DNA from: Anaerostipes sp. MSJ-23
GTDB taxonomy: Bacteria; Bacillota; Clostridia; Lachnospirales; Lachnospiraceae
DNA length: 53,401 bases
Reading direction: 5' to 3'
Assembly: GCF_018918155.1 (NCBI RefSeq)
Contig: NZ_JAHLPY010000019.1
Span: forward strand, 1-53,401
In this document: in pieces, positions 516 to 50,725 of the stretch
Position numbering within the stretch: position 1 is the stretch's first letter
How the letters are laid out: each line of letters begins with the position of its first letter
Program-made: the position numbers and the translations under genes
The notes under the pieces: generated by a model
Databases searched by the model: none
What the model saw: only the letters and a program-made list of their open reading frames with translations
What the model was told of the DNA's origin: nothing

Positions 516-1520
516 TTAGCAAATTCTTGGAAGTAATTCTCCACCTGGTTGCGGTAATAAAGTTTCTGCTCCAATTTCAGTTGTCATAACAACCTTTCCT
601 TCATTTTCTTCTGTAATTTCACCAATGATTGCTGCATTTTTTGAATATTTTCCTTCATGTAAAACATCTAGAATCTTTGGTGCCGTCTCTTTTGATGTAA
701 TAACAACCAACGTTCCTTCATTTGCAAGATAAAGCGGATCAAGTCCTAACATGCCACAAACACCTTTCACTGCTCCATCAACTGGAATTGCTTCGGAATC
801 AAGGCGTACTCCAACATGACTTTCCGCAGCAATTTCATAAAGGACCGTACCAACACCACCTCTTGTTGCATCACGAATTACATGAATATCTTTACTTGCT
901 TCAATCATAGACTCTACAGTTCCCCATAAAGGTGCGCAATCACTCTGAATATCTGCTTCAATTCCAAGATCTTCTCTCTCAAGAAGAATTGTACATCCAT
1001 GCCGTCCAATATCTCCCGTTACGATTATAATGTCTCCTGGTTTTGCAAAAGCTCCAGATGTATGAACGCCATCTTGTAATTTTCCAATTCCTGTTGTTGT
1101 AATAAAGACCTGGTCTACTTGTCCCTTCCCTGCAACTTTTGTATCTCCAGCTACAATCTTCACACCAGCTTCTTTTGCTGTTTTTTCCATATAAGACGCT
1201 ATTTTTTCCAGTTTTTCAAATGGAAATCCTTCTTCTATAACAAAAGAACATGTCATATACATTGGTTTTGCACCCATGCATGCCAAATCATTTACTGTTC
1301 CGCAAATGCTTAACTTCCCAATATTTCCTCCTGGAAATTCAAATGGAGAAACGATAAATCCATCCGTTGTCATTGCAATTTTCCCGCTTCCAACATCTAA
1401 AACTGCAGCATCATCTGCCGTAAATTCTGGATTTGAAAAATGTGCCTTAAATACTTCTTCTATTAACTGTGCTGTTTGTTTTCCGCCCGCACCATGAGCA
1501 AGTGTTACTACTTTTTCCAT
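516..1520 (-). CDS. hypE: HypE, carbamoyl-dehydratase of Fe(CN)2CO assembly
   Basis: HypE uses ATP to dehydrate a thiocarbamate on its C-terminal cysteine to a thiocyanate, which is passed to the HypC-HypD complex as the cyanide ligand. The 334-residue product starts with the typical TLAHGAGGK glycine motif, has PurM/AIR-synthase type segments (TADDAAVLD, DATRGGVGTVLYEIA) and ends in PRIC. The conserved last Cys that carries the carbamoyl group is therefore intact. The ATG is preceded by a GGAGAG site, 11 bases after hypD stops. It is the last gene of the 11-gene operon and follows hypF, hypC and hypD. Nothing looks broken. In [NiFe]-hydrogenase producers the partner genes hypA and hypB are normally near; they are not seen here. 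Confidence 0.96.
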   Translation of the reverse strand: MEKVVTLAHGAGGKQTAQLIEEVFKAHFSNPEFTADDAAVLDVGSGKIAMTTDGFIVSPFEFPGGNIGKLSICGTVNDLACMGAKPMYMTCSFVIEEGFPFEKLEKIASYMEKTAKEAGVKIVAGDTKVAGKGQVDQVFITTTGIGKLQDGVHTSGAFAKPGDIIIVTGDIGRHGCTILLEREDLGIEADIQSDCAPLWGTVESMIEASKDIHVIRDATRGGVGTVLYEIAAESHVGVRLDSEAIPVDGAVKGVCGMLGLDPLYLANEGTLVVITSKETAPKILDVLHEGKYSKNAAIIGEITEENEGKVVMTTEIGAETLLPQPGGELLPRIC

Positions 1521-1531
1521 TGTTCTCTCCT

Positions 1532-2581
1532 CTATTCATTTCCACCATATTGATAATAAGCTGAACATGCACCTTCATTTGATACCATACAAGCACCAAC
1601 CGGATGTTGTGGGTTACAAGCTTTTCCAAATACCTTACAATCTGACGGCTTACATTTTCCCTGAAGAACCTCTCCACAACGACAAGCTGGATTACTTCTT
1701 CCTTCAATCTTTGGAAGCTGAAATTTCAAACGTGCATCGTAAGATTTATATTCTTTTCGAAGTTTCTGTCCAGAATTTTTAATAATTCCAAGGCCCCTCC
1801 ACTCAGAATCACAGGACTCCATGACTTCCGCAATTAATTTCTGAGCCGGAAGATTTCCTTCTGATTTTACAACTCTTGGATAGCAATTAACAAAAAACGG
1901 TTTTCCTGTTTTTGATTTTTCAATAATCACTGCTAATGCTGTCAAAAGTTCTTTTGCTGTAAATCCAGCTACCACACCAGAAACACCTTCTTTCGTCAAT
2001 TCCTCGCAAAGTTTTGTTCCAGTAATTGCATTGACATGACCTGGATAAAGAAACGCATCTGCACTCCCTTTCAATGCCTCATAAGCATTTGGCATTGTTT
2101 TATTTGCCACAAGTAATGAAAAATTTGAAAGATTTTCTTCTTTTGCACGCTTTACTGCTAAACAAGCTGCAGGAATCGTTGTTTCAAATCCAACCGCAAG
2201 AAATACATACTGTTTTTCTGGATTCTTTTTTGCAAGTTCTACTGCATCCAATGGAGTATATACAATTTGAATTTTTGCCCCCTTGGAACGCGCATCTGAA
2301 AGACTCATCTTTGTTCCAGGTACTCGAATTAAATCTCCAAAAGTACAGATAACCGCATCTTTTTCCAGTGCAAGCATAACTGCCTCATCAATATATCCCA
2401 CAGGTGTTACACAGACTGGACATCCTGGTCCTGAAATCAATTCAATCTGTGGTGGAAGAATCTTACGAATTCCTAAGCGAAAAATTTCATGCGTATGTGT
2501 TCCACATACTTCCATAATTCGAATTTTTTCACCATCATAAGATTCTATGATCTCTTTTGCTGTTTTTTTCTTTTCTTCCAT
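1532..2581 (-). CDS. hypD: HypD, iron-sulfur scaffold for the Fe(CN)2CO group
   Basis: HypD and HypC together hold the iron that receives two cyanides and one carbon monoxide. The 349-residue protein shows the invariant family motifs: CGTHTHE around residue 26, GPGCPVC around residues 51-57 (the CxxC pair), and a C-terminal cysteine-rich stretch (residues ~299-340: CRCGEVL, KPSDCKVFGKAC, GACMVSNEGACS) that carries the [4Fe-4S] cluster. Length is close to the usual ~370. It lies between hypC and hypE with short gaps. All catalytic cysteines are present, so the protein is expected to be active. Confidence 0.96.
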   Translation of the reverse strand: MEEKKKTAKEIIESYDGEKIRIMEVCGTHTHEIFRLGIRKILPPQIELISGPGCPVCVTPVGYIDEAVMLALEKDAVICTFGDLIRVPGTKMSLSDARSKGAKIQIVYTPLDAVELAKKNPEKQYVFLAVGFETTIPAACLAVKRAKEENLSNFSLLVANKTMPNAYEALKGSADAFLYPGHVNAITGTKLCEELTKEGVSGVVAGFTAKELLTALAVIIEKSKTGKPFFVNCYPRVVKSEGNLPAQKLIAEVMESCDSEWRGLGIIKNSGQKLRKEYKSYDARLKFQLPKIEGRSNPACRCGEVLQGKCKPSDCKVFGKACNPQHPVGACMVSNEGACSAYYQYGGNE

Positions 2582-2597
2582 ATCAACTCACCACTTA

Positions 2598-2804
2598 TTA
2601 TAAAAGATCCATAATCTCATCTGTTTCATCTTTATCATCGTCTGTTATTTTTGCAATGGCAATTCCTGCATGTACCATAACATATTCTCCTGGTTCTAGA
2701 TTTTCAATCAATTCTGCAGAAACTTCCCTTTTTGCACCAGAAGCATCTACTACTGCCATTCCATTTTTTACTCCTACAACTTTTGCTGCTAATCCAACAC
2801 ACAT
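2598..2804 (-). CDS. hypC: HypC, small chaperone of Fe(CN)2CO assembly
   Basis: This 68-residue HypC/HupF family protein begins MCVGLAAKVV, so the essential Cys2 that binds iron with HypD is exposed once the first Met is removed. The OB-fold signature GEYVMVHAGIAIAKI is present. The length is on the short side of the family (70-90) but complete. It starts one base after hypF stops. HypC normally hands the finished iron group to the large subunit of a [NiFe] hydrogenase. No such subunit is in the window, so its acceptor is open. Confidence 0.95.
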   Translation of the reverse strand: MCVGLAAKVVGVKNGMAVVDASGAKREVSAELIENLEPGEYVMVHAGIAIAKITDDDKDETDEIMDLL

Positions 2805-2805
2805 G

Positions 2806-5133
2806 TTATTTCTCCTCCTTATTTATCCTTGCCATAGCTGCTACTGCTTGTCCAAGAGCAATTCCTCCATCATTCGGTGGAATCAAACTATGACGTAATA
2901 CGCTAAATTTATTTTTTACTAATTGTTCTTCACATAGTCTCAAAAGAAGCTGATTTTGAAAAACACCACCACTTAGTGCACAGGTTTTTATCCCCGTCTG
3001 TTTTGAAACCATTTTACATCCTTCTACAATCTGATCGGCCAAAATTTTATGGAAGAAATAAGCTAATTTTCCTACACTTTCTCCATTTAATTTTCGTTCT
3101 ATTATCTCCTTTACCAAAAGATTCGTTGAAAGACGCGCCGGTTGTTTTTCATCTTCTTCCTCGTTTATTACTAAAAGCTGTGGCTGCTTTTCTTCTTCTC
3201 CGTTACACTCCTCCCATTCTTCTGCTGCAAACTGAAGCGAAGTAGAAGCTTCTCCTTCAAAGGTCGAAGATGTTCGAATTCCTAAAATAGCACTAACCGC
3301 ATCAAACAACCGGCCTGCACTGGTGGATTTTACACAATTAATCTTTCTCTGTGCCATTTTTTCATATAATCTCTGCATCTTTTCGTTACAAAGATTTAAA
3401 CGATTACAAATGTCTGCCGCCTGATCCTGATACAAATCATTTATCATAGAAACTGCAATTCTCCAACCTTCTTTTGCAGAAATATCTCCTCCAATTTGCC
3501 AAAATGGATGAATGCTTAATTTCCTTTGAAAACCATAAAAATCAGCGACAAGAATTTCTCCACCCCAGATACTTCCATCCAATCCATATCCAGTTCCATC
3601 AAAAGAAACCCCTATCACAGGATCACAATAATCATTTTCTGCCATACATGATACAATATGTGCATAATGATGTTGCACCTGTATCATTGGAATTTTTTGT
3701 TCCTGCGCTACTAATGTTGTGTTGTACTTTGGATGCATATCACAAACAACAACATCAGGTTTTGTTTCTAATAATTCTTCCATCCTCTGAATAGATTCTT
3801 CCAAAGCCTGCACCGTTCTCAAATCTTCCATATCTCCCACATAAGGCGACGGATAAAACAATTGATTTTTTCCAATACAAAATGTATTTTTCAACTCTCC
3901 ACCAACTGCCAAAACCTGCCCTTGAAATTTTTCTGACAACATCACCGGAAGTGGCGCATATCCTCTAGAGCGACGAATCATATAAGGTTTTCCTTTATAA
4001 AAATCCATCACCGAATCATCTGCTCGCAGGCGAATCTTACGATTATTCGAAAGAATTAAATCGCAAAAATGAGATAATTCTTTGATTGCATCTTCATCTG
4101 TACGACAAATCGGTGCACCAGAAACATTTCCACTTGTCATCACAAGGCAATCTGTTCCAAGATCTATATCATCACCATAATCAAAAATAAGCATCTGAAC
4201 GGGTGCATATGGGAGCATTACTCCTATTTTTGGATTTCCTGGTGCAACATCTTTTGCTAAAGTCCCTTTTTCCCCTTTTTTTAAAAGAAGAATTGGTTTT
4301 TGATGACCATCTAGGATTTCTTCTTGTGCCGTTTCTATCATACATTCTCTCTTTACGGTATCAAGGTCTTTCATCATAACTGCAAAGGGCTTTGCTGGTC
4401 GATTTTTTAACTTTCGAAGTCTCAACACTGCCTCCTCATTTTTGGCATTACAGCATAAATGAAACCCTCCAATTCCTTTAATTGCCACAATTTTTCCATC
4501 TTTAATTGCCTGTCTTGTTACTCGAATTGCTTCCTGACCTCTTTCATTTCTTCCTATTATATAAACTTCCGGTCCACAATCATTACAACAAACCGGCTGA
4601 GCATCGTATCGTCTTGTTTCAGCATGTGTATATTCATATGTACACTCCGAACACATTGGAAACTCTTTCATACTCGTTCGCTCTCTATCATAAGGCATTG
4701 CATCAAGAATCGTCAATCTTGGCCCACAAGCCGTACAATTAATAAATGGATGCAAATATCTTCGATTTTTTGGATCATACAATTCCTGCTTACATTTCGG
4801 ACAAGTTGCAATATCTGGTGAAACAAAAATATCTCCCTCTTCTTTCTGACTTTCAACAATCTCAAAGGAAGAAAATACAATATCCTCACAATCTGAAAGA
4901 TCAATTTTTAAAATAGCAGAACGTTCTGGTGGACATTCTTTTAAATCACGATAAAACGTTTTTAATTGTTTTTCATTCCCACGGGCATAAATTTCAACAT
5001 AAGAACCTTTATTAGCAACACTTCCTGTAATACCGGAGGCATCTGCAATCCTACTAACAAACGGTCGAAAACCAACTCCCTGTACAATTCCATAAACCCG
5101 GATAACTTTTGTTTTTTTCTTATCTTCCATCAT
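2806..5133 (-). CDS. hypF: HypF, carbamoyltransferase for cyanide ligand synthesis
   Basis: HypF converts carbamoyl phosphate and ATP to carbamoyl-adenylate and carbamoylates the C-terminal Cys of HypE. Domains in order are an N-terminal acylphosphatase (GIVQGVGFRPFV), two zinc-finger blocks (CPKC...CTAC and CSEC...CNDC), a YrdC-like domain (KIVAIKGIGGFHL) and a Kae1-like C-terminal domain (HHYAHIVSCM, FDGTGYGLDG, LSGGVFQN). I chose the ATG at 5133 because GGGGA lies about 8 bases upstream; the reading frame is open to 5154. An adjacent ATG at 5130 is equally possible. The start lies inside the 3' end of the upstream nitrogenase-like gene, indicating translational coupling. The length of about 775 is normal. 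Confidence 0.95.
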   Translation of the reverse strand: MMEDKKKTKVIRVYGIVQGVGFRPFVSRIADASGITGSVANKGSYVEIYARGNEKQLKTFYRDLKECPPERSAILKIDLSDCEDIVFSSFEIVESQKEEGDIFVSPDIATCPKCKQELYDPKNRRYLHPFINCTACGPRLTILDAMPYDRERTSMKEFPMCSECTYEYTHAETRRYDAQPVCCNDCGPEVYIIGRNERGQEAIRVTRQAIKDGKIVAIKGIGGFHLCCNAKNEEAVLRLRKLKNRPAKPFAVMMKDLDTVKRECMIETAQEEILDGHQKPILLLKKGEKGTLAKDVAPGNPKIGVMLPYAPVQMLIFDYGDDIDLGTDCLVMTSGNVSGAPICRTDEDAIKELSHFCDLILSNNRKIRLRADDSVMDFYKGKPYMIRRSRGYAPLPVMLSEKFQGQVLAVGGELKNTFCIGKNQLFYPSPYVGDMEDLRTVQALEESIQRMEELLETKPDVVVCDMHPKYNTTLVAQEQKIPMIQVQHHYAHIVSCMAENDYCDPVIGVSFDGTGYGLDGSIWGGEILVADFYGFQRKLSIHPFWQIGGDISAKEGWRIAVSMINDLYQDQAADICNRLNLCNEKMQRLYEKMAQRKINCVKSTSAGRLFDAVSAILGIRTSSTFEGEASTSLQFAAEEWEECNGEEEKQPQLLVINEEEDEKQPARLSTNLLVKEIIERKLNGESVGKLAYFFHKILADQIVEGCKMVSKQTGIKTCALSGGVFQNQLLLRLCEEQLVKNKFSVLRHSLIPPNDGGIALGQAVAAMARINKEEK

Positions 5134-6181
5134 ATAATTTCCCCGAAACTGCAAAATGTGGAATTGAAATATACGTTCCTTTAAATTCTTTTAATGGACG
5201 ATGTAATAATGCATCACCAATAATAACATCATATTGTTCCTCTTCTACATGTTTTATAAATCCGTCTTCTGTTTTAAATACAAGATCTCCTTCTTCTTTC
5301 AAATCTTTTGGCTGCATAAACCATGTACCAACGTTCAATTCCATTTTCTCTCCCTTATGAGATAATCGAATATTTTCTCGAATTTCATTTGCTGCCACCT
5401 GTTGATGTACGATCAAAACTTTTTTCCCTGAAATTTGCTTCAATTGATTTAAAAAGTTCTCTCCCAAAAATGGATATGTGACTTCATATGGTATTCCAAA
5501 ATTTTTTTCCATATATTTTGCAGGTTTTAATCCTGCAGGAGCTACAACCAAATTTTTTTGTACACTTCCGGCAAGTTTCACTTCTTCAAGACCACTTCCC
5601 ATTCCGTAACTATAAATTCTTTCAAAGCCTTCTTTTTGAAGCTTTTCTTGTAAAAAAGTATCCCCTTGCGTCAGACTAATATCAAGTGGGGTCATTCCAA
5701 TGACACCTACTGCTTTATCATCTCGTTCCACATCTTTTCTTGCAAATTTTCGAAACAAAGCAAGGTAAGTCTCTTCTTCTCCTTCATCATATAAACGAGT
5801 ACCAGTACACTCTATCGCAATGACTGGCATCTGACATCGTTTTTCCCCCATACGTTCCAGTGCCCGATAGTCGGTTGCAATCACAGCTGGCACCGGTGTT
5901 CCAATCACAGCTGCAAACTTCGCATGAACTTTCTGAGCAGTATCTTTTAATTTATCTACTAAACGATCATCTCTTCCAAGAATTGCATCCATATCACGAA
6001 GCCCTGCACTAAAAATTGCACTCTGATGTTCAAACCATCGCGGTTCATCAAAACCACAAATATTTCCTGTACATCCACCGGCATCACAAATGACAGTAAT
6101 CCCTTCTAAATCATATAAAACAGATGTTGCTCCGGACTGATCAGGAGCAAATGGTGATAAATACTTTAATAATCCTTTCAC
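5120..6181 (-). CDS. Nitrogenase component-1-like subunit, short K/B-type (first pair)
   Basis: The 353-residue protein belongs to the nitrogenase/protochlorophyllide-reductase component 1 superfamily. N-terminal features are GATSVLYDLEGITVICDAGGC (given in two parts: GATSVLYDLEG then DAGGC) and DEPRWF; the C-terminus has VIIGDALLHRP and PHFAVSG, as in NifK/BchB. Only Cys37 is shared with its paralogue at 8238-9395. The third P-cluster-type Cys seen in nitrogenase is replaced by the TPVPAVIATD segment. It overlaps the preceding gene by one base and hypF by 14. It probably forms a heterodimer with the 432-residue protein and takes electrons from the NifH-like ATPase. The substrate is unknown; it is not a nitrogen-fixing NifK, being far shorter and lacking its ligands. 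Confidence 0.85.
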   Translation of the reverse strand: MKGLLKYLSPFAPDQSGATSVLYDLEGITVICDAGGCTGNICGFDEPRWFEHQSAIFSAGLRDMDAILGRDDRLVDKLKDTAQKVHAKFAAVIGTPVPAVIATDYRALERMGEKRCQMPVIAIECTGTRLYDEGEEETYLALFRKFARKDVERDDKAVGVIGMTPLDISLTQGDTFLQEKLQKEGFERIYSYGMGSGLEEVKLAGSVQKNLVVAPAGLKPAKYMEKNFGIPYEVTYPFLGENFLNQLKQISGKKVLIVHQQVAANEIRENIRLSHKGEKMELNVGTWFMQPKDLKEEGDLVFKTEDGFIKHVEEEQYDVIIGDALLHRPLKEFKGTYISIPHFAVSGKLYDGR

Positions 6182-7479
6182 TATACATTCCTCCGATCCA
6201 TTGCTTCTTTTAACTGTTCAAATAAATGCTGCAAGCCACAATAACCAAATGGCTGCCTTTCTTCATTCCATGACACATTGACTGCATCCGGATGATAATA
6301 ATTAGCATCCATTCCAATAGTCATTTCAACTTTGCTGTCACTACAATCATAATACATCATTGTCGGCGAAAGGTTTGTATATATTTTTGTGTGTGGACTT
6401 AATTGTGCTATCTTTTTAATATAAACAAACTTTTCCGGAGTTACTGTTCCATAAATTTCTTTTACCTGATGGCCATAACGAAGCAGGGCAAGAGCAAGCT
6501 CAAAAGTATCTGCATTTAAACATTCTCCAATTGCAAATGATGTTGATGGATATGCATTTGTAAAAGCATTGATAGCTTTCTTTGCCTGATCATAATATTT
6601 CTGATCATCAATTTTAATTCCAAGTGCTGCTGCAAACAACTCATATTGCCGCTTGATTTTATCAATTTGATATAAACGGGTTAACTCAATGGAAGGAATT
6701 TCAAGGCGTTTTTTTATATCTTCTGCTGCCAAACGACATTCTGGATTTAACACAAGATTAAAATTAGCTTCAGCCATAGACATATATTCTTCAAAGTCTT
6801 TACATCTTGAAATTTCATTGATTTTTTTCACACCAGCAGATCTTAAGATCTCATATAATTCCATATCATCAAAAAATGGTGCAAATTCTCCAAGAAGATT
6901 TACTGTTGTTCCAACTCTTTTGCGTTTCTCAAGTAAGGAATATACCGATTTACGAACAGCTGTCATTGGTGGAACTCTTCCTTCTCTTGTCAGTGCATAC
7001 ATATAGCATGGAAGTACCGGTATTCCAACCGCATCCGTCGCCTTTTTACAAACGCGCTCCATATCGGTCCCCAGCAATGCATCTACACAAGTAATACAAA
7101 TCATAACCGCAGATGGTGGCATATCCAAAGAATCAACAACCTCTTTCACTGCCTTTGAAATCTTATTCAAATGACGTCCGGTAACAATATCTGTATCATC
7201 CATTAATAGATAAAAAAATCGTTCTCCATATCCGCCAAGCTCACTAAGCATCGTTGTATTTCTTCCGCAGCAACCAGGTGCAACCAGTAGCTCCACAGAA
7301 CCAGGAATCGCAAGTCCTGCTCTCTTTACCCCAAATCCTTGGGCCCCAGGAGAGTTAAAAGATAAAGTTGCCGGAGAACTATAGATCAAATGCTTTGATG
7401 ACTTTAATTCATCTGGAATCTGATCTTTTCCACACTCTGCCAATTCTTTTGCCTCAATATAATAAACTTCTTTTTTCAT
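6181..7479 (-). CDS. Nitrogenase component-1-like subunit, longer D/N-type (first pair)
   Basis: The 432-residue protein is of the nitrogenase component 1 superfamily. LLVAPGCCGRNTTML (Cys70, Cys71) matches the second cluster-ligand region of NifD/BchN, and MICITCVDALLGTDME (Cys128, Cys131) the third. The first ligand position reads NSPGAQG with no Cys. Cys70 and Cys131 are conserved in the paralogue at 9392-10729. Classic FeMo-cofactor ligands cannot be assigned. It begins directly after the NifH-like gene and overlaps its partner by one base, so the two subunits are likely made together. It is best described as an uncharacterised nitrogenase-like reductase subunit of unknown substrate. Confidence 0.85.
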   Translation of the reverse strand: MKKEVYYIEAKELAECGKDQIPDELKSSKHLIYSSPATLSFNSPGAQGFGVKRAGLAIPGSVELLVAPGCCGRNTTMLSELGGYGERFFYLLMDDTDIVTGRHLNKISKAVKEVVDSLDMPPSAVMICITCVDALLGTDMERVCKKATDAVGIPVLPCYMYALTREGRVPPMTAVRKSVYSLLEKRKRVGTTVNLLGEFAPFFDDMELYEILRSAGVKKINEISRCKDFEEYMSMAEANFNLVLNPECRLAAEDIKKRLEIPSIELTRLYQIDKIKRQYELFAAALGIKIDDQKYYDQAKKAINAFTNAYPSTSFAIGECLNADTFELALALLRYGHQVKEIYGTVTPEKFVYIKKIAQLSPHTKIYTNLSPTMMYYDCSDSKVEMTIGMDANYYHPDAVNVSWNEERQPFGYCGLQHLFEQLKEAMDRRNV

Positions 7480-8235
7480 TTACTCTTTATCCTCCAGAAG
7501 ACGTTTGGCAAGATCAAGATAAACCTTGCTCACTTGTAGCTGTGGATCTCCCTCCACTACAGTTTTTCCAAGATCTTCATAATGTATAATGTCCTGGCTT
7601 CTTGGAATATCCGCTATGATTTCAAGACCACTGTTTTTTGCAAATTCTTCTACTTTTTCTCGCTCATTTTCTACATTTCTTCTATTTAAAATAATTCCCT
7701 TCACCGTAGCATATCCACGATCTTCAAAATTATTAACTGCCGTATTGATATTATTAGCCGCATAAAGGGCCATTTTTTCTCCAGAAGTCACAATCAAAAT
7801 TTCACTTGCATATCCTTCTCTAATTGGTGCTGCAAATCCACCACAAACAACATCTCCAAGGACATCATAAAGGACTACATCCGGCTTATATATCTCAAAT
7901 AATTCCAAATCTTCCAACAAACTAAATGTAGTAATAATTCCTCTCCCTGCACATCCAAGACCAGGTGTTGGACCTCCAGTTTCAATACAAAGAACTCCAC
8001 CAAAACCCTCCTTGGCAATTGGATCAAGCGTTTCTGGTTCTTCGTCAAATTCTCGAATATAATTCATAACAGGTTTTACCGGATCTCCATTTAATAAATT
8101 AATCGTAGAATCTGCTTTTGGATCACATCCTATCTGAATGACCTTTTTCCCAAGAGTCGCAAATGCCGCTGCAAGATTACTAGTTGTTGTAGATTTTCCA
8201 ATTCCACCTTTCCCGTAAATTGCTAATTTTAACAT
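7480..8235 (-). CDS. NifH-like ATP-dependent electron donor (first triplet)
   Basis: The 251-residue NifH/BchL family protein has all functional motifs. They are the P-loop GKGGIGKST at residues 8-16, switch [10 protein letters not shown], the first cluster Cys in GLGCAGRG, and switch II with the second cluster Cys in [13 protein letters not shown] homodimer would carry one [4Fe-4S] cluster between subunits and pass electrons to the component-1-like pair encoded just downstream. Length is slightly below NifH (about 275-295) with a shorter C-terminus. It starts two bases after the upstream gene ends. A second, divergent copy is at 10726-11478, suggesting one reductase per component-1 pair. Confidence 0.92.
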
Positions 8236-8237
8236 AC

Positions 8238-9395
8238 TTATCTTAAACCTCCTGTTTCTTCAAATTCCCGGTCTATCAGATCCGGTATCTTATTTTCATA
8301 AATTCTTCCAGAAAATGCAATATGACCGAGTGGATAAAAAGATGCTTTCTTTGGACATAAAGGTTTGTATAATGGATCTGCAATCACTATATCCATCCCT
8401 TCTAATGCCTCCATAAGATCATCTTCCTCCGGTGTCTGTTTATCCATAGACCGAAGGATCATTTCCTCTGTCTCTAATGGACATAAAACTTCACACGAAA
8501 TACCATATTGCTGTTCTATCTCACCTGCAAGAGATGTGGCATAAACACTTTCTCCAATAATCGCTGCTTTTTTTTCTGATCTAATATCTGCTTTATATTT
8601 TTGACAGACAACCTGGCTTTTTCCTGTCTCCAATGATTCTTTCAGACAATGCTCAACTGTCGCTGCAAATAATTTTCCAACCGGAACTCCAACCACATAT
8701 GGAATATCAAATTCCTCTTCCATTTTTTTTGCAATTTCCATTGCTCCATAAGAAATAACAAGATTCACCTGAGCTTTTCCTGCCTTAGAAAGTTCTTCCA
8801 GTGAACTTCCCATCGCAAAACACGCTCCTGTTTGCATCCCTATATTTTTTATCCAACGCCGAATAGAATCAATACTTCCATTAAGTGAAAAATCAAGCGG
8901 TGTTGCTCCTAAAATATTAACTTTGGTTTGCGTACTTTTTAAAACTTCTTTTTTACAAAAACGGTCCACAATTGCATCAAACGCCATCGATATTCCACTT
9001 AAATATCCATTCATTCCGTTTGCTTCCAATCCAAAAGAAGGAATCCCTGTCTCTTCTTCTATGACCGCTGCAATTGCTTTTAAATCCGTTCCAATCATAT
9101 ATGGAATAGGGGCACCGACAAGTGCAATAAATTTTGGCTTCATCTGCTGTGCCGTCTCAATAACGTCATGAATTAACTTATCGTCATCTCCCATGATCGC
9201 TTCCATCTCAGAAATTGCTGAAATATAAATCATGCTTTCCATATCATACCATCTTGGTTCATCATGTGTTGTATATGTTGAATTGCATCCAGATGCATCA
9301 TGCATCACAACCATTCCGCCAAGTTCATACAAAGCGGAACAAATGCCAAATTCATCCGATGAATATGTTGAAATTAATCCTGCTACCTGTTTCAT
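8238..9395 (-). CDS. Nitrogenase component-1-like subunit, short K/B-type (second pair)
   Basis: This 385-residue protein is the paralogue of the one at 5120-6181. The shared backbone includes [19 protein letters not shown] (Cys37), [20 protein letters not shown], a central [13 protein letters not shown] like GMGSGLEEVKLAG, and the C-terminal [10 protein letters not shown] and HIAFSGRIY. Asp33 and Cys37 are the polar positions kept in both copies. The ATG overlaps the upstream stop (ATGA), a sign of coupled translation. It is predicted to pair with the 445-residue protein. Its C-terminal tail ([11 protein letters not shown]) is longer than in the first copy. Function unknown; the family assignment is firm, the reaction is not. 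Confidence 0.84.
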
Positions 9396-10729
9396 ATGCA
9401 GCTTTCACACCCGTATCCCTTTCTCTGAATCAATATCTTTCTATCTTTTTTATGACAAAATGCTTCCTTCATTTGATTTGCGATCTGAAAAATTCCATCA
9501 AACCCATACAATCCACCGCTTTCCACGACATTGACAAAATAATCTGTGCCTGTAAAATAAGCCGCTTTCTGTCCAATCGCTAAAACTTTTTCTTCTGATT
9601 TTTCTACCAGAAAACGCATCTGTGGACGAGATGTAGGAGAAATCACCATTTCCGGATAATGCTCCTTAATCCAAAGAAAGTCTTCTTTTTCCTCTGGAAG
9701 AAACATATCCGCAAAAATTTCTCTAACAAAAAATCCATGTTCTAAAAGCATTCTCACAAAACTTAAAATTCGAAATGTAAATGTATAATCCACTGCAATC
9801 GGTGTATTTCCAATCACCTGATAAGCTTCTTTTAATGCTTTTTTCGCACTTGCTTTCTCCTCTTTAAAATCTGGCTTTTGGATACCAAGCTTTTGCGACA
9901 GTTTTTCATAAGCATTTTCTATCCGATCTTCCTGATAAACAAATGGAAGATAAAACGCTTCCTGTCCAAGTCTTTGTTTCAGATCTTCTGCTGCCATTTT
10001 TGCAAGCGGCTCATAATAAAGGTTCAAAGACGCCTGCGCCATATCAAGATATTCTTCATATGTCTTACACCAGTTAATCATTTGAAGATTGGCTCCTGCA
10101 GCCTTTACTATTCGAAACAATTCACAACTTTTACTAATTGGAAGATTGCTCCCTATCAGATTAATCTTATCTTTTCTTTTTTCTTTTGGAGAAAGAAGAC
10201 TATACAACTGAATTCTCATCTTTTGGTCTGGCGTCAACCCACTTTTTCTTAAAGTTGGTATCATATAACAATCTGTGAATGAAATATCTGGAAAACGTTT
10301 TCTTAATTCACGAAATACCATATCCTGATCATATGCCAGAAAAAAATGTTGACAGCTGATAAAAACAAGCACCGCTTTTGGTTTATATGAAAGTTTTTTT
10401 AATACATCTGTAATACCATCGATCATAAACTCTTCCATATTACCTTCCAAAACATTTTCTTCCCGTATTGCAACAGAAGAATAACGTCCCATAGCATTCA
10501 TCTCCGCTGCTGTTAAAACAACACCACGAAGACATCCTTGCGCACAGACAAAAATCTGATGAGACTGTGGAATCAGCATTCCTGTATGCACGATATTCCA
10601 TGTTCCCCTCGCTGGAGAACTAAATTCCAATCCCTCCTTAAATGGAGCTGGAAAAGATACTTCTTTCATTGGTTTCTTCGTCTCTTTCAAAGATGGTTCT
10701 TCACCAATTCTTCTTAACATATTCTTCAC
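9392..10729 (-). CDS. Nitrogenase component-1-like subunit, longer D/N-type (second pair)
   Basis: The 445-residue protein is the counterpart of 6181-7479. [11 protein letters not shown] (Cys62, Cys66) and [10 protein letters not shown] (Cys126) match Cys70 and Cys131 of the other copy; the first ligand site (SSPARGT) again has no Cys. The C-terminus keeps the [18 protein letters not shown] segment corresponding to FELALALLRYG, then diverges, so the two pairs may act on different substrates. It also has an extra Cys-rich tail (GYGCESCI). It overlaps the NifH-like gene upstream and the partner downstream by four bases each (ATGA). It could be mistaken for NifE/NifN-type scaffolds, but no NifB or NifDK is present. 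Confidence 0.83.
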
Positions 10730-11478
10730 CCCTGTCTGGAAAGAATCTTATCTGCAAGTTTTCGATATTCCTCTGCCATTTTACTTGTACCAAATGCTTC
10801 TATCACTGTTTTTTTCATTGGTTCTGCATCTTGCACTGTCTCACTAAAAGAAAGTTCCCCAACAATTTGTGAATGAATATCCTCACAAAGTTCTTCTACC
10901 TTTGCCCGTTCACTTTTTACATTTTTATGATTTAAAATGATACCTCCCAGCTTTGCATAACCACGTCCTTTAAAATTATCAATTGCCATTGCAATATTGG
11001 CTGCTGCATGAATCGACATATTCTCTCCAGACGTAATAATATAAACAAGATCTGCATAACCGCTTCGCATTGGCATCGAAAATCCCCCACAGACAACATC
11101 TCCCAATACATCATAAAATACAATATCTGGCTTTACGACATCATAAATTCCCTTTTTTTCAAGTTTTTCAAGAGCTGTAATAATTCCACGTCCAGCACAT
11201 CCAAGTCCTGGTATTGGACCACCTGCTTCCACACAAGCAACTCCTTGATATCCTATGCACATAACATCATCTAATGTAAAATTATCCTTTTTTTTACGAA
11301 TGGTATCAAGAACTGTTGAAAGTTCCTTTCCGTGCCTTAAACTAATTGTTGAATCCGCTTTTGGATCACAGCCAATCTGGAGAACCTTCTTCCCTTTTTG
11401 TGCAAGGGCTGCTGACAGATTAGACACCGTCGTTGATTTTCCGATTCCGCCTTTTCCATAAACTGCTATTTTTATCAT
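10726..11478 (-). CDS. NifH-like ATP-dependent electron donor (second triplet)
   Basis: The 250-residue NifH/BchL family protein has P-loop [18 protein letters not shown], a first cluster Cys in GLGCAGRG and a second in [17 protein letters not shown]. It is clearly homologous to the NifH-like protein at 7480-8235 but diverged through the C-terminal half, which fits separate partners. Its stop overlaps the start of the 445-residue component-1 gene and its start overlaps the stop of the TM1266-type gene. It is the first enzyme gene of the operon. Both ATP-binding and iron-sulfur ligands are complete, so an active reductase is expected. Confidence 0.92.
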
Positions 11479-11738
11479 TTTTCCACCTGCTCAGATATTT
11501 TTGAATATGTTGTTTTTGCACTAATTCCCTTAATTTTTCCAAGTTTTCCTGCTAACGTATTGATTACATCCTGTGGCGCATCAATTGCAATACTAATAAT
11601 GTTTAATCCTTTTTCATGATAAGGAATTCCCATTCTTCCTAAAATATACATTCCATAATCATGTAAAATATCATTAACTTCCACCGATGCATCAATATCT
11701 TCCACAATAATTCCTATAATTGCAATTCTGCTTTCCAT
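11475..11738 (-). CDS. TM1266-type small ACT-like regulator
   Basis: The 87-residue protein [18 protein letters not shown]... matches the family annotated as putative iron-only hydrogenase system regulator (TM1266 family). This is a stand-alone ferredoxin-fold domain similar to the ligand-binding part of NikR and ACT proteins. Typical features are the opening [11 protein letters not shown], the HDYG and [21 protein letters not shown] segments, and a short basic C-terminus. The family is usually found next to hydE/hydF/hydG of [FeFe] hydrogenases. Here it heads a nitrogenase-like/hyp operon instead, which is unusual. The start is an ATG with GGAGG about 7 bases upstream. It lacks an obvious DNA-binding domain, so a regulatory role is by family only. 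Confidence 0.85.
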
Positions 11739-11800: not shown

Positions 11801-11905
11801 AACCACATCCAAAGATGTGGTTATTGTATACAAGTTTAAGAGAGCATTCTCTTCCCTTCCCATAAAACACATCTTCAATCTCAATCATAATTTCGATTTT
11901 AGATG
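11801..11905 (-). promoter_or_regulatory. Operon leader with terminator and competing pairing (attenuator-like)
   Basis: The RNA made from the promoter at 11911-11939 has about 100 bases before a perfect intrinsic terminator: a 9-base stem at 11801-11822, loop TTTG, then seven T on the minus strand. Upstream in the leader, AAGATGTG (minus strand, 11868-11875) is exactly complementary to CACATCTT (11812-11819) in the 5' arm of that terminator. An antiterminator could therefore form. A small hairpin (AGAGA/TCTCT near 11838-11853) lies between. The same RNA could encode a 34-codon peptide starting at the ATG near 11893-11891, but without a clear ribosome site. No known riboswitch class was recognised. 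Confidence 0.55.
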
Positions 11906-11910
11906 ATTTT

Positions 11911-11939
11911 ATTGTAACACTATTGACTTTCTTTTTCAA
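11911..11939 (-). promoter_or_regulatory. Promoter of the nitrogenase-like/hyp operon
   Basis: TTGAAA (11934-11939) is followed after 17 bases by TACAAT (11911-11916) on the minus strand, about 170 bases upstream of the TM1266-type gene. It is the only good sigma-A promoter seen ahead of the operon. Confidence 0.65.
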
Positions 11940-41688: not shown

Positions 41689-44600
41689 TTAAATTTCATC
41701 TAAAATCTTTTGTACCGCATATGGCTTTGCATATTTAATATACGCATCGCTAATAAATATTTTCTCTTTGTTCTTTGGTTCTACTAACATCGCTGGATAT
41801 ACAACTATCTGCTTTTCATGATTTTTATTTTTTACCCATATTCCTGAATTATCAATTTTTACATTACAACCGGATAAACTCAATATATTTTCTAATGGAT
41901 AAATGTATTCTTTCTGTTTTTCTATTTTTATATCGTTTGCGAGTTTGCTTTTTTCACCCCAATCTAATAATTCTAACGCAGCAAATCTATCTAACATTCC
42001 ATGAACATATTGATTTCTGTAATGTTTTAAGCAATTATGACAAGCATCTCCACATGAACATTCTGTAAGTATTTCACGAATAATCTTAAGTAATTTGGAT
42101 ATCTCATTGGCTACATTAACAGCATATCCTGCACCACTTGATAAACTATCATATAAATATATATCTATATATGCACATGTTGAATTGCTTCGAAGTCTAT
42201 AACCCGTTACAAGTTCAGAAAATTCAACATCTAAATATTTACTTGCTGCAAGCCTTAGAGCTTCTGCTAATGACTGTGCTGCTCTAGGTAACCATGGATT
42301 GCAATTTCTAGTTACATCTATTTTGCTACTGTCTATATTAAATTCCAATACTAACATGTCTGTAACAAAATCATAACCTAAATTTACATTTTTTAAATTT
42401 CTATGTGAACATTTTCCCCTAGCAAATTTAGTAATATATGGTCTCTGCACACCTTTAAGAACACGTGCTTCATCTCCTGGCATCGCCGCACCACAATCCT
42501 CGCATACAGTGAATCCTCTATCTTCAACACCTTTATTCATCATAATAATTCTTTGATTTTTTCTTGGCGACATTCTAATATTTAAAGTCCCTTCAACGTC
42601 AAATATTTCATCTGCATCTGGCAATGTAGAATACAATGGTTGTTGAACGGCTGTATATTCTTCCGTCAATTGTGCGTCTTGGATTGCTCGTGCATTTTTA
42701 GGTGCAAATCCCCAAGGCCTAAGCATATTTTTATCTAAAGTCAAGTCTTTATTACCACAAAATGGACATTTTTTTACATTTTCTTCTTCTAATCCAAACC
42801 AACCACATTCTGAACATGAAAGGATTGACTTCATATAATTTCCATCTTCCATATATGATTTTGCTGGAGATAACAACTGGCCCTTCTTTTTTTCACTCCC
42901 TGGATAAAATAATCCACCAATCTGATAAGTTTGTTTATCAACAATAATTGCTCGTCCTGGAGCATACTCTCCAATGGCTACATCTAAACCTCTTTCAACT
43001 TCATACTTAGTTCTACCATAATTATCAGTTATATATGTACTCACAACATTTTTGGGAAATGAATATGTTGGAATAATTCCCTCTTCATATAAGGCATCCA
43101 ACAAAGACTTTGCTTCAACATCATTAATATTTTCGTCTTCAACACCAAATAATTCTGGATGATCTTCACGTTTTTTCTTAAGTTTTTGCAGATCTCTTTT
43201 TATAGAATCCAAAAATTTTTGATAATTAAATTCAATATTAGGCATTAATATGTCGTCTCTCTCCACACGATATTTTTTTGTATATTCAATAAAATTTTCT
43301 AAATAATTATCTAAAAACTCAACTGCTGACATCATATCAATATTATTTTCTCTACCTTGTAGATACTCTTGAAAAACTACCATAGCTATATGTCTTTGCA
43401 TTAATTTTTCACTTTGTACATCTATCCATGGTCTTCTTGGATCTCCTCTGAACATAGGAACAGGATTATTAAAATATAACGTGTCATGTGGTCCATCCTC
43501 ACAAAATGTTACTATCGTTGAAAGACTAGCTCCATGTCTACCAGCTCGCCCAGCTCGCTGTTGATAATTTTCACGCATTGGTGGAATATTACGAAGTCCA
43601 ACTGCTACCAATGAACCTATATCAATTCCAACTTCCATTGTAGTTGTACTACTTAAAATATCGACTGGTATCTCTCCTTCTTGAGTTAAATCTTGAAACC
43701 GAAGTTCATACTGCTCTGTTTTACTCCACATATCATCACGCTGGTCTTTATGAGAAAGTTGAGCTGTATGCTCTTCAGTATCAATAACATGTATTGATTT
43801 TCCATTCAAAGCATCAATAACAGGTCTTCTCCAAAAATCCAACGAATCAAATTCCTTTTCTGTCATTTTATGTATATTAGTTGAACCACAACTTGGGCAA
43901 TGTTTCTTTAGCATATATGGTGTAATCTCCGAACATTGATCACAGCGATACCATTCTTTTTCTATTTTGAATCTTGGTTTTACTCTCGCTAAATCAACAT
44001 ATAATTTTCCATTGTCTGGCTGGGCCGAATCTAAAAATGCCTCTCTCAATACACTTTTCCATATATTCATTTCTGTAGAATTATTATCCCAATTCATAAT
44101 CTCCATAATATTCTTTGAAAATTTCCATTCCTTATCAAAACCATACTCTCCATATTTAGGTCTCACATTTAATCGTATATCGTCTGAAATTGTATGCCCC
44201 AGAAAAGTCGCCGTGTCACAACCTGATATCATCCACGCATTAAAAAATTCTATAAATTCATTTTCATCTACCCTAATTCCTTCTTCTCCCAATAAATCAA
44301 TTGCATCGAACATTGCATGATCTGTGGGGTCTATCCAACATAAAGCAGAATCATATAGTGTATTATAACCACCAGAAAATAATCTAAGTAAATAATTTTG
44401 CATCTGAACAGGTGCATTATATATTTTAAATCTAGGTGTATATTTCATTCGACGTTTATTATATCTATTATAATTTTTAATAGTTGATTTACAATCTTTA
44501 ATAAACTTTTCTCTTTCCGGATTATGGAAAATCTGTAAATGTTGTTGTCCTGCAACCAAGCAAAAATAATCATATAAATCATTCATCGATAGCTGCTCAT

Positions 44601-46947
44601 CATCGGATTCTTCCATCATATTAATTGCCATTACAAATAATTGTCTTACTGCCATAATATCAGAAGAATCAGACATATCACGAGCCAATTTTGCCGCTCT
44701 TTGTCTACTATCAGAAAACAATAATACCTTTCTTCCTTCATTAGGAAATCTGTCAGGATCATTGTCTTTTCCTACTACAGGAGGTTGATTTTGAAACTGT
44801 GCCTGAATCAAATTAAAAAATGATTGGTTACCCCGTGTGCTAAATGAAGTAAGTTGTGTAGAAGAAAGCTGATGTCGACAGTGTGGACAAGTTGTAAAAG
44901 TCACTATCTGAGGTCTTCCTTTTGCAGAGTAATTACAATAATATAATTTTCTAATGCCTGGTTTCCCTGCTTGAGAATCATCCTTAAAATTTATAAAACC
45001 ACTTTTAATATCTAAATAACATGGTTTAATAGCATTTTTTCCTTGTTTTTTAGGAAGAATATAACCATGCGGAGGAATATACAAATGAACTTCCTTCATT
45101 CTTCTATCCATCATTTGTCCCGAATAATGCCACAGGTATGCATTTCTTTTAAAATCTGTATCATCTTCAAGTATATATCCTTTATAAAACAAAGCTCCAC
45201 ATCTTCGGTCATTATATAATTCATAAACAACACTCTGACAATATGGACATACCAATTTCCCATCAGATAAAAATATCTCTCCTAAATCTAAAGTATCATC
45301 ATGATGAGAATGACTACACTCTGGATTTGCACAAGCATAGACACCTTTTATTCCCTTAAACAACATGTGCATTCTAGCGGGAAACAAAACCATGCCTTTT
45401 CTATTTTTCGCCATAGGCGCAATTGCTAATAAAACACCTACTGCTTGTAAGGCCTTTTCGTTTTCTACATTTGGAAATATAATCTGTGCTAATTCATTTA
45501 AAGATACAGCTTCCCCTCTGCAACTGCTAATTAACAATGAAAAAGGTTCATACTCCATCAAATGATCATACATCCAATAATATATCTCTTCTAAATTTAA
45601 AAATTCACTTGATACACCATCAAGTCCTTTCCAAAAATTTCTTAATTCTTTTAAACGTTCTTTTTCATTTCCTTCAAACATATCAGGATTCACTTTTTCA
45701 TATTTATTAAATGGAATCTTAAATTTTTGATAACTTTGTATACTTTCTCTGATTCCCGTGAGATAAGAAAAATCCAACTCTTTATCCGCAGCTGTTAACT
45801 CACTAGCAAATTTTATTACTGCTTCTTTATCTTTATTGTTCCTATCCGGCATACTAGCTGTAGTTAAAATAAATTGAACCCTATCTCTAGAAATACCCAA
45901 TTTGTGAAATAATCTTCTTATGAGAAAAGCGACCTCACCTCCCGATGAACCTCTATACATATGAGCCTCATCAATTACAAATAATAATTTATTTGACGAA
46001 TCGACGTTTAACCATTTTTTTGTATCAGACCAAATTTTTGCTTCTTTAGGTCTTAATAACATATATTCAAGCATAGAATAATTTGTTATGAGTATATCTG
46101 GACAAAATTGTTGCATCTCAAATCGTGTTATAAGTTCCGCATCCTCATCATCTGGAATATGTTTACTTTCATATAACCCTTCCAAAAAATCTTCCATATT
46201 AATCTTCGCAGGTATCTTTCCTTCTTTTGAGAGTTGATCAAAAAAAACCTTTTCACTTTCTGATGTAGGAAATGACATCCTTCTTAGAGTTTTTTCTAAT
46301 CTTCTATCCTGATTTTTATTAGGTTGCAAACCTGAATATGGTGTTCTACCCGTATACATTCCAAATTGTGGACGTCTCACATTACTTCCACATATTTCTC
46401 TAAAAATGTTTATAAATTTATTTTCAGAATCACCAATAAGTCTACGTAAACGGCTTACTTGATCGGATACAAGTGCATTCATTGGATACATGATAATTGT
46501 CCTAACACCTCTCATCTGCCAAGTATCCGATGAATTTCTCGCCTCATCTGCAAGTTTTGCCAATAAAGGCCACATAAAACATTCCGTTTTACCTGAACCT
46601 GTACCAGTAGCAACAAATAAATCTTTTCCCTCAGTTGCCTTCTCTAATGCTTCTATCTGATGAATAAATGGCGTTGGATATACCCCAATTCCAGCCTTGC
46701 TCAGTTTTTCAAAATAATCTTTCATCCAATCTGGAATTTTTGAATAACGAATTCCTTCTTCCTTACTTTTATACGCAGGAGAAGATTCTATATAAGGTTT
46801 TTGATACAATACACCTTCTTTATCTAACTGTTCACTAACTGCCGAAAGCAGAATGGGTGATTTAGCAAAATATTGTGATTTTATGTAATTTTCTAGTTCT
46901 GCACGTAATTCTTTATGTACAGAATTTGCTCCATTCGACATTTTCAT
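41689..46947 (-). CDS. Large DEAH-box helicase with zinc sites and DUF1998-type C-terminus, DruE-like
   Basis: The 1752-residue protein is a superfamily 2 helicase. Walker A ATGTGSGKTE is at 113-122, YPMNALVSDQ follows, and the DEAH motif is FVIDEAHMYRGSSGGE. The second RecA domain has VLLFSDSRQRAAKLA, MEVGIDIG and the motif VI block YQQRAGRAGRHGA. Between and after are zinc ribbons (CPYCQ, TTCPHCRHQ, CDQCSE...CPSCG, CSECGWF...CPFCGN, CEDCGAA). The C-terminus SLSSGAGYAV, CSCGDACHNCLKHYRNQ is the DUF1998/MrfA-type zinc domain. This fits DruE of Druantia or DrmA-like/MrfA helicases. The start overlaps the preceding stop (ATGA) behind GAGGAG. It ends the four-gene operon and is probably its motor. 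Confidence 0.88.
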   Translation of the reverse strand: MKMSNGANSVHKELRAELENYIKSQYFAKSPILLSAVSEQLDKEGVLYQKPYIESSPAYKSKEEGIRYSKIPDWMKDYFEKLSKAGIGVYPTPFIHQIEALEKATEGKDLFVATGTGSGKTECFMWPLLAKLADEARNSSDTWQMRGVRTIIMYPMNALVSDQVSRLRRLIGDSENKFINIFREICGSNVRRPQFGMYTGRTPYSGLQPNKNQDRRLEKTLRRMSFPTSESEKVFFDQLSKEGKIPAKINMEDFLEGLYESKHIPDDEDAELITRFEMQQFCPDILITNYSMLEYMLLRPKEAKIWSDTKKWLNVDSSNKLLFVIDEAHMYRGSSGGEVAFLIRRLFHKLGISRDRVQFILTTASMPDRNNKDKEAVIKFASELTAADKELDFSYLTGIRESIQSYQKFKIPFNKYEKVNPDMFEGNEKERLKELRNFWKGLDGVSSEFLNLEEIYYWMYDHLMEYEPFSLLISSCRGEAVSLNELAQIIFPNVENEKALQAVGVLLAIAPMAKNRKGMVLFPARMHMLFKGIKGVYACANPECSHSHHDDTLDLGEIFLSDGKLVCPYCQSVVYELYNDRRCGALFYKGYILEDDTDFKRNAYLWHYSGQMMDRRMKEVHLYIPPHGYILPKKQGKNAIKPCYLDIKSGFINFKDDSQAGKPGIRKLYYCNYSAKGRPQIVTFTTCPHCRHQLSSTQLTSFSTRGNQSFFNLIQAQFQNQPPVVGKDNDPDRFPNEGRKVLLFSDSRQRAAKLARDMSDSSDIMAVRQLFVMAINMMEESDDEQLSMNDLYDYFCLVAGQQHLQIFHNPEREKFIKDCKSTIKNYNRYNKRRMKYTPRFKIYNAPVQMQNYLLRLFSGGYNTLYDSALCWIDPTDHAMFDAIDLLGEEGIRVDENEFIEFFNAWMISGCDTATFLGHTISDDIRLNVRPKYGEYGFDKEWKFSKNIMEIMNWDNNSTEMNIWKSVLREAFLDSAQPDNGKLYVDLARVKPRFKIEKEWYRCDQCSEITPYMLKKHCPSCGSTNIHKMTEKEFDSLDFWRRPVIDALNGKSIHVIDTEEHTAQLSHKDQRDDMWSKTEQYELRFQDLTQEGEIPVDILSSTTTMEVGIDIGSLVAVGLRNIPPMRENYQQRAGRAGRHGASLSTIVTFCEDGPHDTLYFNNPVPMFRGDPRRPWIDVQSEKLMQRHIAMVVFQEYLQGRENNIDMMSAVEFLDNYLENFIEYTKKYRVERDDILMPNIEFNYQKFLDSIKRDLQKLKKKREDHPELFGVEDENINDVEAKSLLDALYEEGIIPTYSFPKNVVSTYITDNYGRTKYEVERGLDVAIGEYAPGRAIIVDKQTYQIGGLFYPGSEKKKGQLLSPAKSYMEDGNYMKSILSCSECGWFGLEEENVKKCPFCGNKDLTLDKNMLRPWGFAPKNARAIQDAQLTEEYTAVQQPLYSTLPDADEIFDVEGTLNIRMSPRKNQRIIMMNKGVEDRGFTVCEDCGAAMPGDEARVLKGVQRPYITKFARGKCSHRNLKNVNLGYDFVTDMLVLEFNIDSSKIDVTRNCNPWLPRAAQSLAEALRLAASKYLDVEFSELVTGYRLRSNSTCAYIDIYLYDSLSSGAGYAVNVANEISKLLKIIREILTECSCGDACHNCLKHYRNQYVHGMLDRFAALELLDWGEKSKLANDIKIEKQKEYIYPLENILSLSGCNVKIDNSGIWVKNKNHEKQIVVYPAMLVEPKNKEKIFISDAYIKYAKPYAVQKILDEI

Positions 46948-50712: not shown

Positions 50713-50725
50713 CCTTTTTCTCCTC

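Follow-up and report, generated by a model that had tools for sequence, protein, structure and literature searches.

A conserved operon of nitrogenase-like and Hyp proteins as a candidate HydG-independent pathway for maturation of the [FeFe]-hydrogenase H-cluster

The stretch of DNA analysed here (the window) is a whole contig of 53,401 nucleotides (C19) from the genome of Anaerostipes sp. MSJ-23, which is 2.5 Mb in size and 99% complete. On the minus strand between positions 516 and 11738, eleven genes follow one another in the order TM1266-H1-D1-K1-H2-D2-K2-HypF-HypC-HypD-HypE, and the gene coordinates confirm this arrangement, which had been proposed in an earlier reading of the sequence (the original prediction). 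H1 and H2 are NifH-like reductases, and each is followed by two component-1 subunits, D and K, so that a first triplet with TM1266 (module A) and a second triplet (module B) precede the Hyp genes. Adjacent genes share 1-4 bases or are separated by 0-16, and HypF overlaps K2 by 35 bases as listed, or by less if a later ATG is the start. What do nitrogenase-like proteins and a Hyp set make together? Our analysis suggests that the operon encodes a pathway that matures the H-cluster of [FeFe]-hydrogenase without HydG, with a probability of roughly 0.78. HydG is the known source of the CO and CN of the H-cluster, and it is quite likely that the operon replaces it. The original prediction held that the product is the cofactor of a new enzyme of the nitrogenase superfamily. 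That destination for the Hyp iron group is probably wrong, because both the missing HydG and the linkage to HydE, HydF and TM1266 speak for the H-cluster.

Two sets of sequences were compared. The family set consists of 200 genomes drawn from a single family, with a separate genus code for every genome and with kinship remaining between them, and the named set consists of the best 80 of 491 stretches encoding a relative of D2; three genomes are common to both (G124 = G209, G159 = G211 and G183 = G213). In the family set, the D2 query matched 34 genomes, 12 of them with a close orthologue (55-100% identity), and the order H2-D2-K2-HypF-HypC-HypD-HypE was kept in all 12. The block is split over two contigs in two of these genomes, inside HypF (G136) or inside K2 (G091). 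Where a named locus extends 8 kb or more past D2, K2-HypF-HypC-HypD-HypE followed in order (52/52), and 27 of the 28 shorter loci were without conflict. The exception, L145, encodes a D2 of 70% identity followed directly by H1 and D1, not by K2, and is either an assembly chimera or a rearranged operon. Chance co-occurrence is ruled out by the presence of the block in 12/12 genomes and 52/52 loci, and with 491 stretches encoding a D2 relative the gene set is not confined to one genome. Hyp genes beside component-1 genes thus form one conserved unit, as had been proposed. The 80 stretches include Clostridium (C. ljungdahlii, C. ragsdalei, C. carboxidivorans, C. drakei, C. luticellarii, C. muellerianum and C. 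thailandense), Lachnospiraceae, Anaerobutyricum hallii, Eubacterium ramulus and Blautia massiliensis, and also Coriobacteriaceae, Lentisphaerae and one Synergistaceae bin. No description of the combination was found in the open-licence literature searched, which leaves out most subscription papers.

Nearly all operon genomes scanned contain the partners of HydG and lack HydG itself. PF02906 [FeFe]-hydrogenase, HydF and HydE were each found in 12/12 operon genomes of the family set, and HydG exceeded its cut-off in 0/12. Among the 119 genomes with a strong HydF match (118 over the cut-off; in G085 the match is split and under it), HydG was present in 0/12 with the operon and in 97/107 without it (Fisher p 6.8e-11). 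HydE was scanned in 36 genomes. Of the 80 named loci, 50 had their genomes scanned for HydG and HydF, and HydF stood in for [FeFe]-hydrogenase, which was itself searched in the family set only. HydF was over the cut-off in 48 of the 50 genomes and HydG in two; the genomes without HydG include those of C. ljungdahlii, C. ragsdalei and C. carboxidivorans. A HydG hidden as a weak match was also considered and rejected, since the three sub-threshold matches scanned in operon genomes were all ThiH. In two operon genomes without HydG, G025 (L207) and G091 (L049), [FeFe]-hydrogenases contain the full set of H-cluster motifs.

HydE and/or HydF lie near or inside the operon in 25 of the 80 named loci, HydF in 20 (on the opposite strand in two) and HydE in 12, and HydG lies near it in 0/80. 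HydF was the largest cluster of neighbouring proteins in these loci (20 loci) and HydE the third (12), the second being found in 13. HydE-HydF are inserted between D2 and K2 in L176 and L185, the order in L182 is TM1266-HydF-HydE-H1-D1-K1-H2-D2-K2-HypFCDE, and HydE and/or HydF adjoin the operon of the family genomes G071, G083, G069 and G025. It might be argued that D2K2 (or D1K1) is the final enzyme, namely a new reductase with a Hyp-made CN/CO iron site, and that HydE and HydF share its regulation only. This would accord with the occurrence of Hyp with D2K2 in 12/12 genomes and 52/52 loci and with the catalytic site that component-1 folds often hold. However, it would leave without explanation both the absence of HydG (0/12; 2/50) and the HydE-HydF pair between D2 and K2 in two loci. 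Besides HydE and HydF no recurrent neighbour family was recognised, most clusters being unannotated, and we consider an end enzyme of this kind unlikely.

The lack of HydG in acetogens has been noted before. PMC9431212 reports that five of eight acetogens (C. carboxidivorans, C. ljungdahlii, Clostridium sp. AWRP, C. coskatii and C. ragsdalei) have HydE and HydF and no HydG recognisable by its motifs, and that five species have HypCDEF and not HypAB. The article offers no straightforward explanation for the absence of HydG, and the word nitrogenase occurs in it once, within a reference title. Two HypCDE sets are reported there for C. carboxidivorans, which fits one of them being that of the operon. 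The hyp genes of C. autoethanogenum are CLAU_RS01730-01745.

The HypC/D/E/F set is complete, all four proteins are of normal length as in HypABCDEF maturation of [NiFe]-hydrogenase, and the active motifs of HypC, HypD and HypE are intact. The N-terminal Met-Cys of HypC was found in 61/61 matches reaching the N-terminus, the HypD motifs were kept in 57/58 matches, and the PRIC tail of HypE was present in 11/11 sequences and in 56/56 matches reaching the C-terminus. The operon HypD is only 40-45% identical to two [NiFe]-linked HypDs of the same family (G003 and G050). HypD was over the cut-off in 31/200 family genomes and the [NiFe] large subunit PF00374 was present in 20/200. HypD without PF00374 was found in 12/200 genomes, 11 of which are operon genomes; the twelfth, G051, has HypD and HypE on a contig without nitrogenase-like neighbours. 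PF00374 and PF00346 were absent in 11/12 operon genomes, including that of the window, so that the unit of Hyp and component-1 proteins has no [NiFe]-hydrogenase client there, and a role of this Hyp set for [NiFe]-hydrogenase was rejected. The one operon genome with a [NiFe]-type large subunit (G069; Ech-type, by eye) has a second, separate HypD on the same contig (C22) as the subunit. HypA was over the cut-off in 2/12 operon genomes, the window's genome among them. On another contig of that genome (L115 8095-11981, G000:C16), HypA and HypB (HypB by eye) flank an oxidoreductase of 937 amino acids that by eye is NADPH-glutamate-synthase-like, with no nickel enzyme recognised nearby.

The Hyp set could instead serve the maturation of a [NiFe]-type or other nickel enzyme that has escaped recognition, with the nitrogenase-like triplets as co-transcribed bystanders. 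The HypA-oxidoreductase-HypB cluster would fit such an enzyme, as would the group 1a [NiFe]-hydrogenase that operon-bearing acetogens have according to PMC9431212. The absence of PF00374 and PF00346 in 11/12 operon genomes, the lack of HypA over the cut-off in 10/12, and the second HypD that shares a contig with the large subunit of G069 all speak against it, and this explanation is very improbable.

How could a Hyp-made iron unit reach the H-cluster? The unit carries two CN and one CO, and the diiron site of the H-cluster needs two CN and at least three CO. Judging from their families, for which these functions are known, and from intact motifs, HypF and HypE would convert carbamoyl phosphate into a cyanide donor bound to HypE, and HypC-HypD would build an iron unit liganded by CN and CO. 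Because 11/12 genomes show no [NiFe] enzyme, the unit would not be destined for one, and it may pass to H2/D2K2, encoded beside hypFCDE. H2/D2K2 would act as a scaffold and ATP-driven reductase that rebalances the CN and CO ligands, a step that would be needed because of the difference in ligand ratio between the Hyp unit and the diiron site. Extra CO might be made from CO2 by the NifH-type system. A later reductive or scaffold step may fall to D1K1, paired with H1 or, in genomes lacking H1, with H2; ATP and electrons for both conversions would come from H2 and H1, and the product would go to HydE and then to HydF, which would load the apo-hydrogenase. That D2K2, followed by D1K1, binds the Hyp-made Fe-CN/CO unit and converts it to the Fe(CO)(CN) synthon of HydE/HydF is a tentative proposal with the odds somewhat against it, and the particular chemistry of the D and K proteins is a little more doubtful still. 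We infer the order of steps, the ligand chemistry and the iron-CN/CO species on the D and K proteins.

The order of the two modules in this proposal is suggested by their distribution. TM1266-H1-D1-K1 is mobile relative to the H2 block: it can precede H2, follow HypE or occupy a different contig (G071 and G091). Module B would act early and module A late because B sits with hyp and A with HydE, HydF and TM1266, and because A occurs with HydF and without B in two genomes (G117 and G134), whereas no genome was shown to have B without A. The original prediction had allowed one triplet to reduce a precursor for the other, and such a division of labour fits, since the two triplets are separable modules. 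G069 and G083 have D1-K1 without H1; H2 may therefore serve both triplets there. D2-K2 form a single reading frame in L160, L178, L180, L196 and G071, and D1-K1 do so in L134, L138 and L154.

Compared with the HydG-HydE-HydF system, the proposed pathway would have the same presumed product, and TM1266 is part of the operon. It differs in that genomes with the operon have no HydG over the cut-off (12/12; 48/50) and have Hyp and nitrogenase-like proteins instead. If the proposal is true, the H-cluster has a second biosynthetic route that does without HydG and connects the cofactor worlds of nitrogenase, [NiFe]- and [FeFe]-hydrogenase. It would occur in many gut Lachnospiraceae and in syngas-fermenting acetogens, and would explain why several of these acetogens lack hydG. 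The Hyp set would gain a role outside [NiFe]-hydrogenase, and we know of no such role; organometallic cofactor assembly would be added to the possible functions of nitrogenase-like proteins. The question is directly testable in cultured C. ljungdahlii, which is genetically tractable, and in Eubacterium ramulus and Anaerobutyricum hallii.

H1 and H2 belong to the NifH-type Fe proteins in the broad sense, with Fer4_NifH over the cut-off, a P-loop and two Cys. The P-loop and both [4Fe-4S] Cys were kept in 54/54 H1 matches of more than 90% length in the named loci and in 76/76 H2 matches. Both proteins fall below the NCBIfam cut-offs for NifH (326.9 for H1 and 305.6 for H2 against 394.35), CfbC (318.3 and 303.6 against 402) and BchL (203.9 and 207.7 against 345.15). 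The D and K proteins were likewise rejected as equivalogs of NifD/K/E/N, BchN/B/Y/Z or CfbD, since they miss all these cut-offs. Their best scores were 82.4 for NifE (cut-off 505.1) and 26.8 for CfbD (cut-off 268.4); K1, D2 and K2 scored 40-82 bits against the NifE model, and D1 matched no NCBIfam model at E 0.01. In a tree of component-1 proteins with NifD/E/K/N of NGR234 as the only verified references (Bch, Cfb and Mar were not among them), D1, D2, K1 and K2 each formed one clade (support 100/100, 100/100, 97/87 and 100/100). The tree has a NifD/E side, which holds the D proteins, and a NifK/N side, which holds the K proteins; the D and K proteins lie apart from the Nif proteins of NGR234 (branches 100/99 and 100/100). 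A component-1 pair of L244 is long-branched in this tree, and seven D proteins from other triplets form the sister group of the D1 clade. These further uncharacterised NifH-D-K triplets are L051, L052, L215, L225, L226, L227 and L245; the last is on plasmid pTS1 of Treponema saccharophilum, with an annotated iron-type ABC importer after it, and unannotated ORFs of similar sizes adjoin some of the rest.

AlphaFold2 models of D2 (pLDDT 87.5) and K2 (pLDDT 86.7) both have the component-1 fold. The best Foldseek match of the K2 model was a protochlorophyllide reductase chain (TMq 0.75), a likeness to the Bch enzymes. For methylthio-alkane reductase (Mar), 9fmg_A was among the sequence and fold matches and was not the best one. 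The nearest sequence of solved structure was NifE for D2, K2 and D1, and NifD for K1. Invariant Cys were found in D2 at positions 70, 71, 128 and 131 (12 and 46 sequences) and at 144 in the 46 only, in K2 at 37 and 42 (45 sequences), in D1 at 62, 66 and 126 (35 sequences) and in K1 at 19 and 37 (34 sequences). Such residues would suffice for an interface [4Fe-4S] cluster, and a conserved Cys of the FeMo-cofactor type was not seen by eye in D2. Among known systems, NifEN with NifH has the same fold and the nearest solved sequence, and a biosynthetic rather than a catalytic role would fit; the low NifE scores and the 100/99 branch set the operon proteins apart from it. CfbCD, BchLNB, BchXYZ and Mar also combine a NifH-like protein with two component-1 proteins, whereas the operon proteins miss the NCBIfam cut-offs of CfbC/CfbD and Bch. 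None of these four systems is known to work with Hyp or Hyd maturases.

Several observations weigh against the replacement of HydG by the operon, for which all support is comparative. C. drakei and C. thailandense (2/50) have both the operon and HydG, two of the 50 operon genomes (L161 and L193) are without HydF over the cut-off, the window's own genome has HydE and HydF on other contigs, and 55/80 loci show neither HydE nor HydF within the available flanks. By eye, D2 has no conserved Cys at the place of NifD Cys275. HydF was not over the cut-off in 69 of the 185 PF02906-bearing genomes, and missing maturases are therefore common in the family. HydG is present in three of these 69 genomes (G021, G092 and G129), and a PF02906 protein from a HydF-less genome, L205 (G172), keeps all three H-cluster motifs. 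G175 has module A and no HydF over the cut-off. Ten HydF-bearing family genomes have neither HydG nor the operon. G047 has a HydG fragment, the HydF of G011, G122 and G128 is just 40-43% identical to the query, and G048, G114, G142 and G181 are four further cases. The remaining two, G117 and G134, have module A, HydF and a FecCD-type importer and no HypD; Hyp is therefore not needed everywhere. Could the importer be an alternative supply of the precursor? PMC9431212 proposes that an atypical radical-SAM protein may act as HydG in acetogens or, alternatively, that free CO and CN are used, and reports that HydE and HydF alone gave about 1% activation in vitro. Its Table 1 shows that acetogens also encode group 1a [NiFe]-hydrogenase, and for this reason Hyp may serve both enzymes there.

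The two Hyp-less genomes also bear on a further explanation, in which the triplets contribute to H-cluster assembly only by reducing an iron complex, imported through FecCD in some species, to free iron or ligands, and the Hyp unit goes directly to HydE/HydF. Module A and HydF are paired with a FecCD importer in G117 and G134, and the related triplet on pTS1 precedes an iron-type importer. No importer family was recognised among the recurrent neighbours of Hyp-bearing loci, most clusters being unannotated, and a close D2 was found with Hyp only. We regard this explanation as improbable.

The region ahead of TM1266 may control the HydG-independent pathway proposed above. A conserved hairpin with two GA/GA internal loops is followed by an intrinsic terminator (Table 1), whose left arm can alternatively pair with the 3' side of the hairpin to form an antiterminator. 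In 12 sequences, 94.7% of the cells of hairpin and terminator were paired, with six pairs changed on both sides and the outermost pair failing in 6/12, and 98.8% of those of the antiterminator were paired, with both-side changes at 2/7 pairs; the structure was drawn from the same 12 sequences, some of them near-copies. At E <1e-9 the hairpin model had matches in 13 of the 100 sources, and every one of them precedes TM1266 (the window, L117, L119, L120, L127, L128, L133, L134, L137, L138, L143, L150 and L175); 12 of these trained the model, and the thirteenth, L175, resembles L127. Weak matches were found about 100 bases before TM1266 in L228 (E 0.03), between TM1266 and HydE in L193 (E 0.018), and away from the operon in L130 (E 0.15). 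There was no match at E up to 1 in the H2-first operons searched, and none in L182, L187 and L194 despite TM1266 in front. No Rfam family matched the window's leader (best E 0.33). The leader could be a riboswitch, or a switch bound by a protein, that controls H-cluster maturation. The promoter-like site upstream is no evidence alone, because the region contains six such sites and shuffled sequence a mean of 3.4.

Table 1. Positions of the operon genes, of the leader elements and of Hyp-less copies of module A (window coordinates unless a locus is named).
Feature	Position	Strand	Basis
Promoter-like TTGAAA-17-TACAAT, TG before second hexamer	11911-11939	-	consensus scan, 10/12 matches
Conserved leader hairpin, two GA/GA internal loops; candidate regulatory RNA	11867-11908	-	model R1, E 2.4e-13 (window added to training set by hand; own match not independent)
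Intrinsic terminator inside leader, ahead of TM1266 start	11801-11822	-	alternative antiterminator pairing, 98.8% of cells in 12 sequences
TM1266-type protein, putative [FeFe]-hydrogenase system regulator	11475-11738	-	TIGR03959 114.5 bits, cut-off 60.8
H1, NifH-like ATP-dependent reductase, module A	10726-11478	-	Fer4_NifH (Pfam)
D1, NifD/E-side component-1 subunit, module A	9392-10729	-	Oxidored_nitro (Pfam); clade D1 100/100
K1, NifK/N-side component-1 subunit, module A	8238-9395	-	Oxidored_nitro (Pfam); clade K1 97/87
H2, NifH-like reductase, module B	7480-8235	-	Fer4_NifH (Pfam)
D2, NifD/E-side subunit, module B	6181-7479	-	Oxidored_nitro (Pfam); clade D2 100/100
K2, short NifK/N-side subunit, module B	5120-6181	-	Oxidored_nitro (Pfam); clade K2 100/100
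HypF, carbamoyltransferase (cyanide precursor)	2806-5154 (first possible start)	-	TIGR00143 768 bits, cut-off 466.1
HypC, Fe(CN)2CO scaffold/chaperone	2598-2804	-	PF01455 75.9 bits, cut-off 28.5
HypD, [4Fe-4S] scaffold	1532-2581	-	TIGR00075 411.6 bits, cut-off 192.8
HypE, thiocyanate-forming enzyme, C-terminal PRIC	516-1520	-	TIGR02124 429.8 bits, cut-off 251.6
Hyp-less module A (TM1266-H1-D1-K1), G117	L213 7532-16623		
Hyp-less module A (TM1266-H1-D1-K1), G134	L214 5562-13654		
Hyp-less module A (TM1266-H1-D1-K1), G175	L228 7436-13153		

A terminator-like hairpin lies 3' of HypE at about 471-510 (by eye). Past it, positions 1-470 contain repeated strong promoter-like sequences up to the contig end, which by eye look like the leader of an rRNA operon at an assembly break. 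At the other end of the window, two genes at 47947-52276 had no Pfam or PADLOC match. Next to them, the minus strand at 41692-47963 holds a Druantia type I-like anti-phage defence locus, in which DruE1 scores 1769.6 bits and a DruD1-like gene is matched weakly at 25.9 bits.

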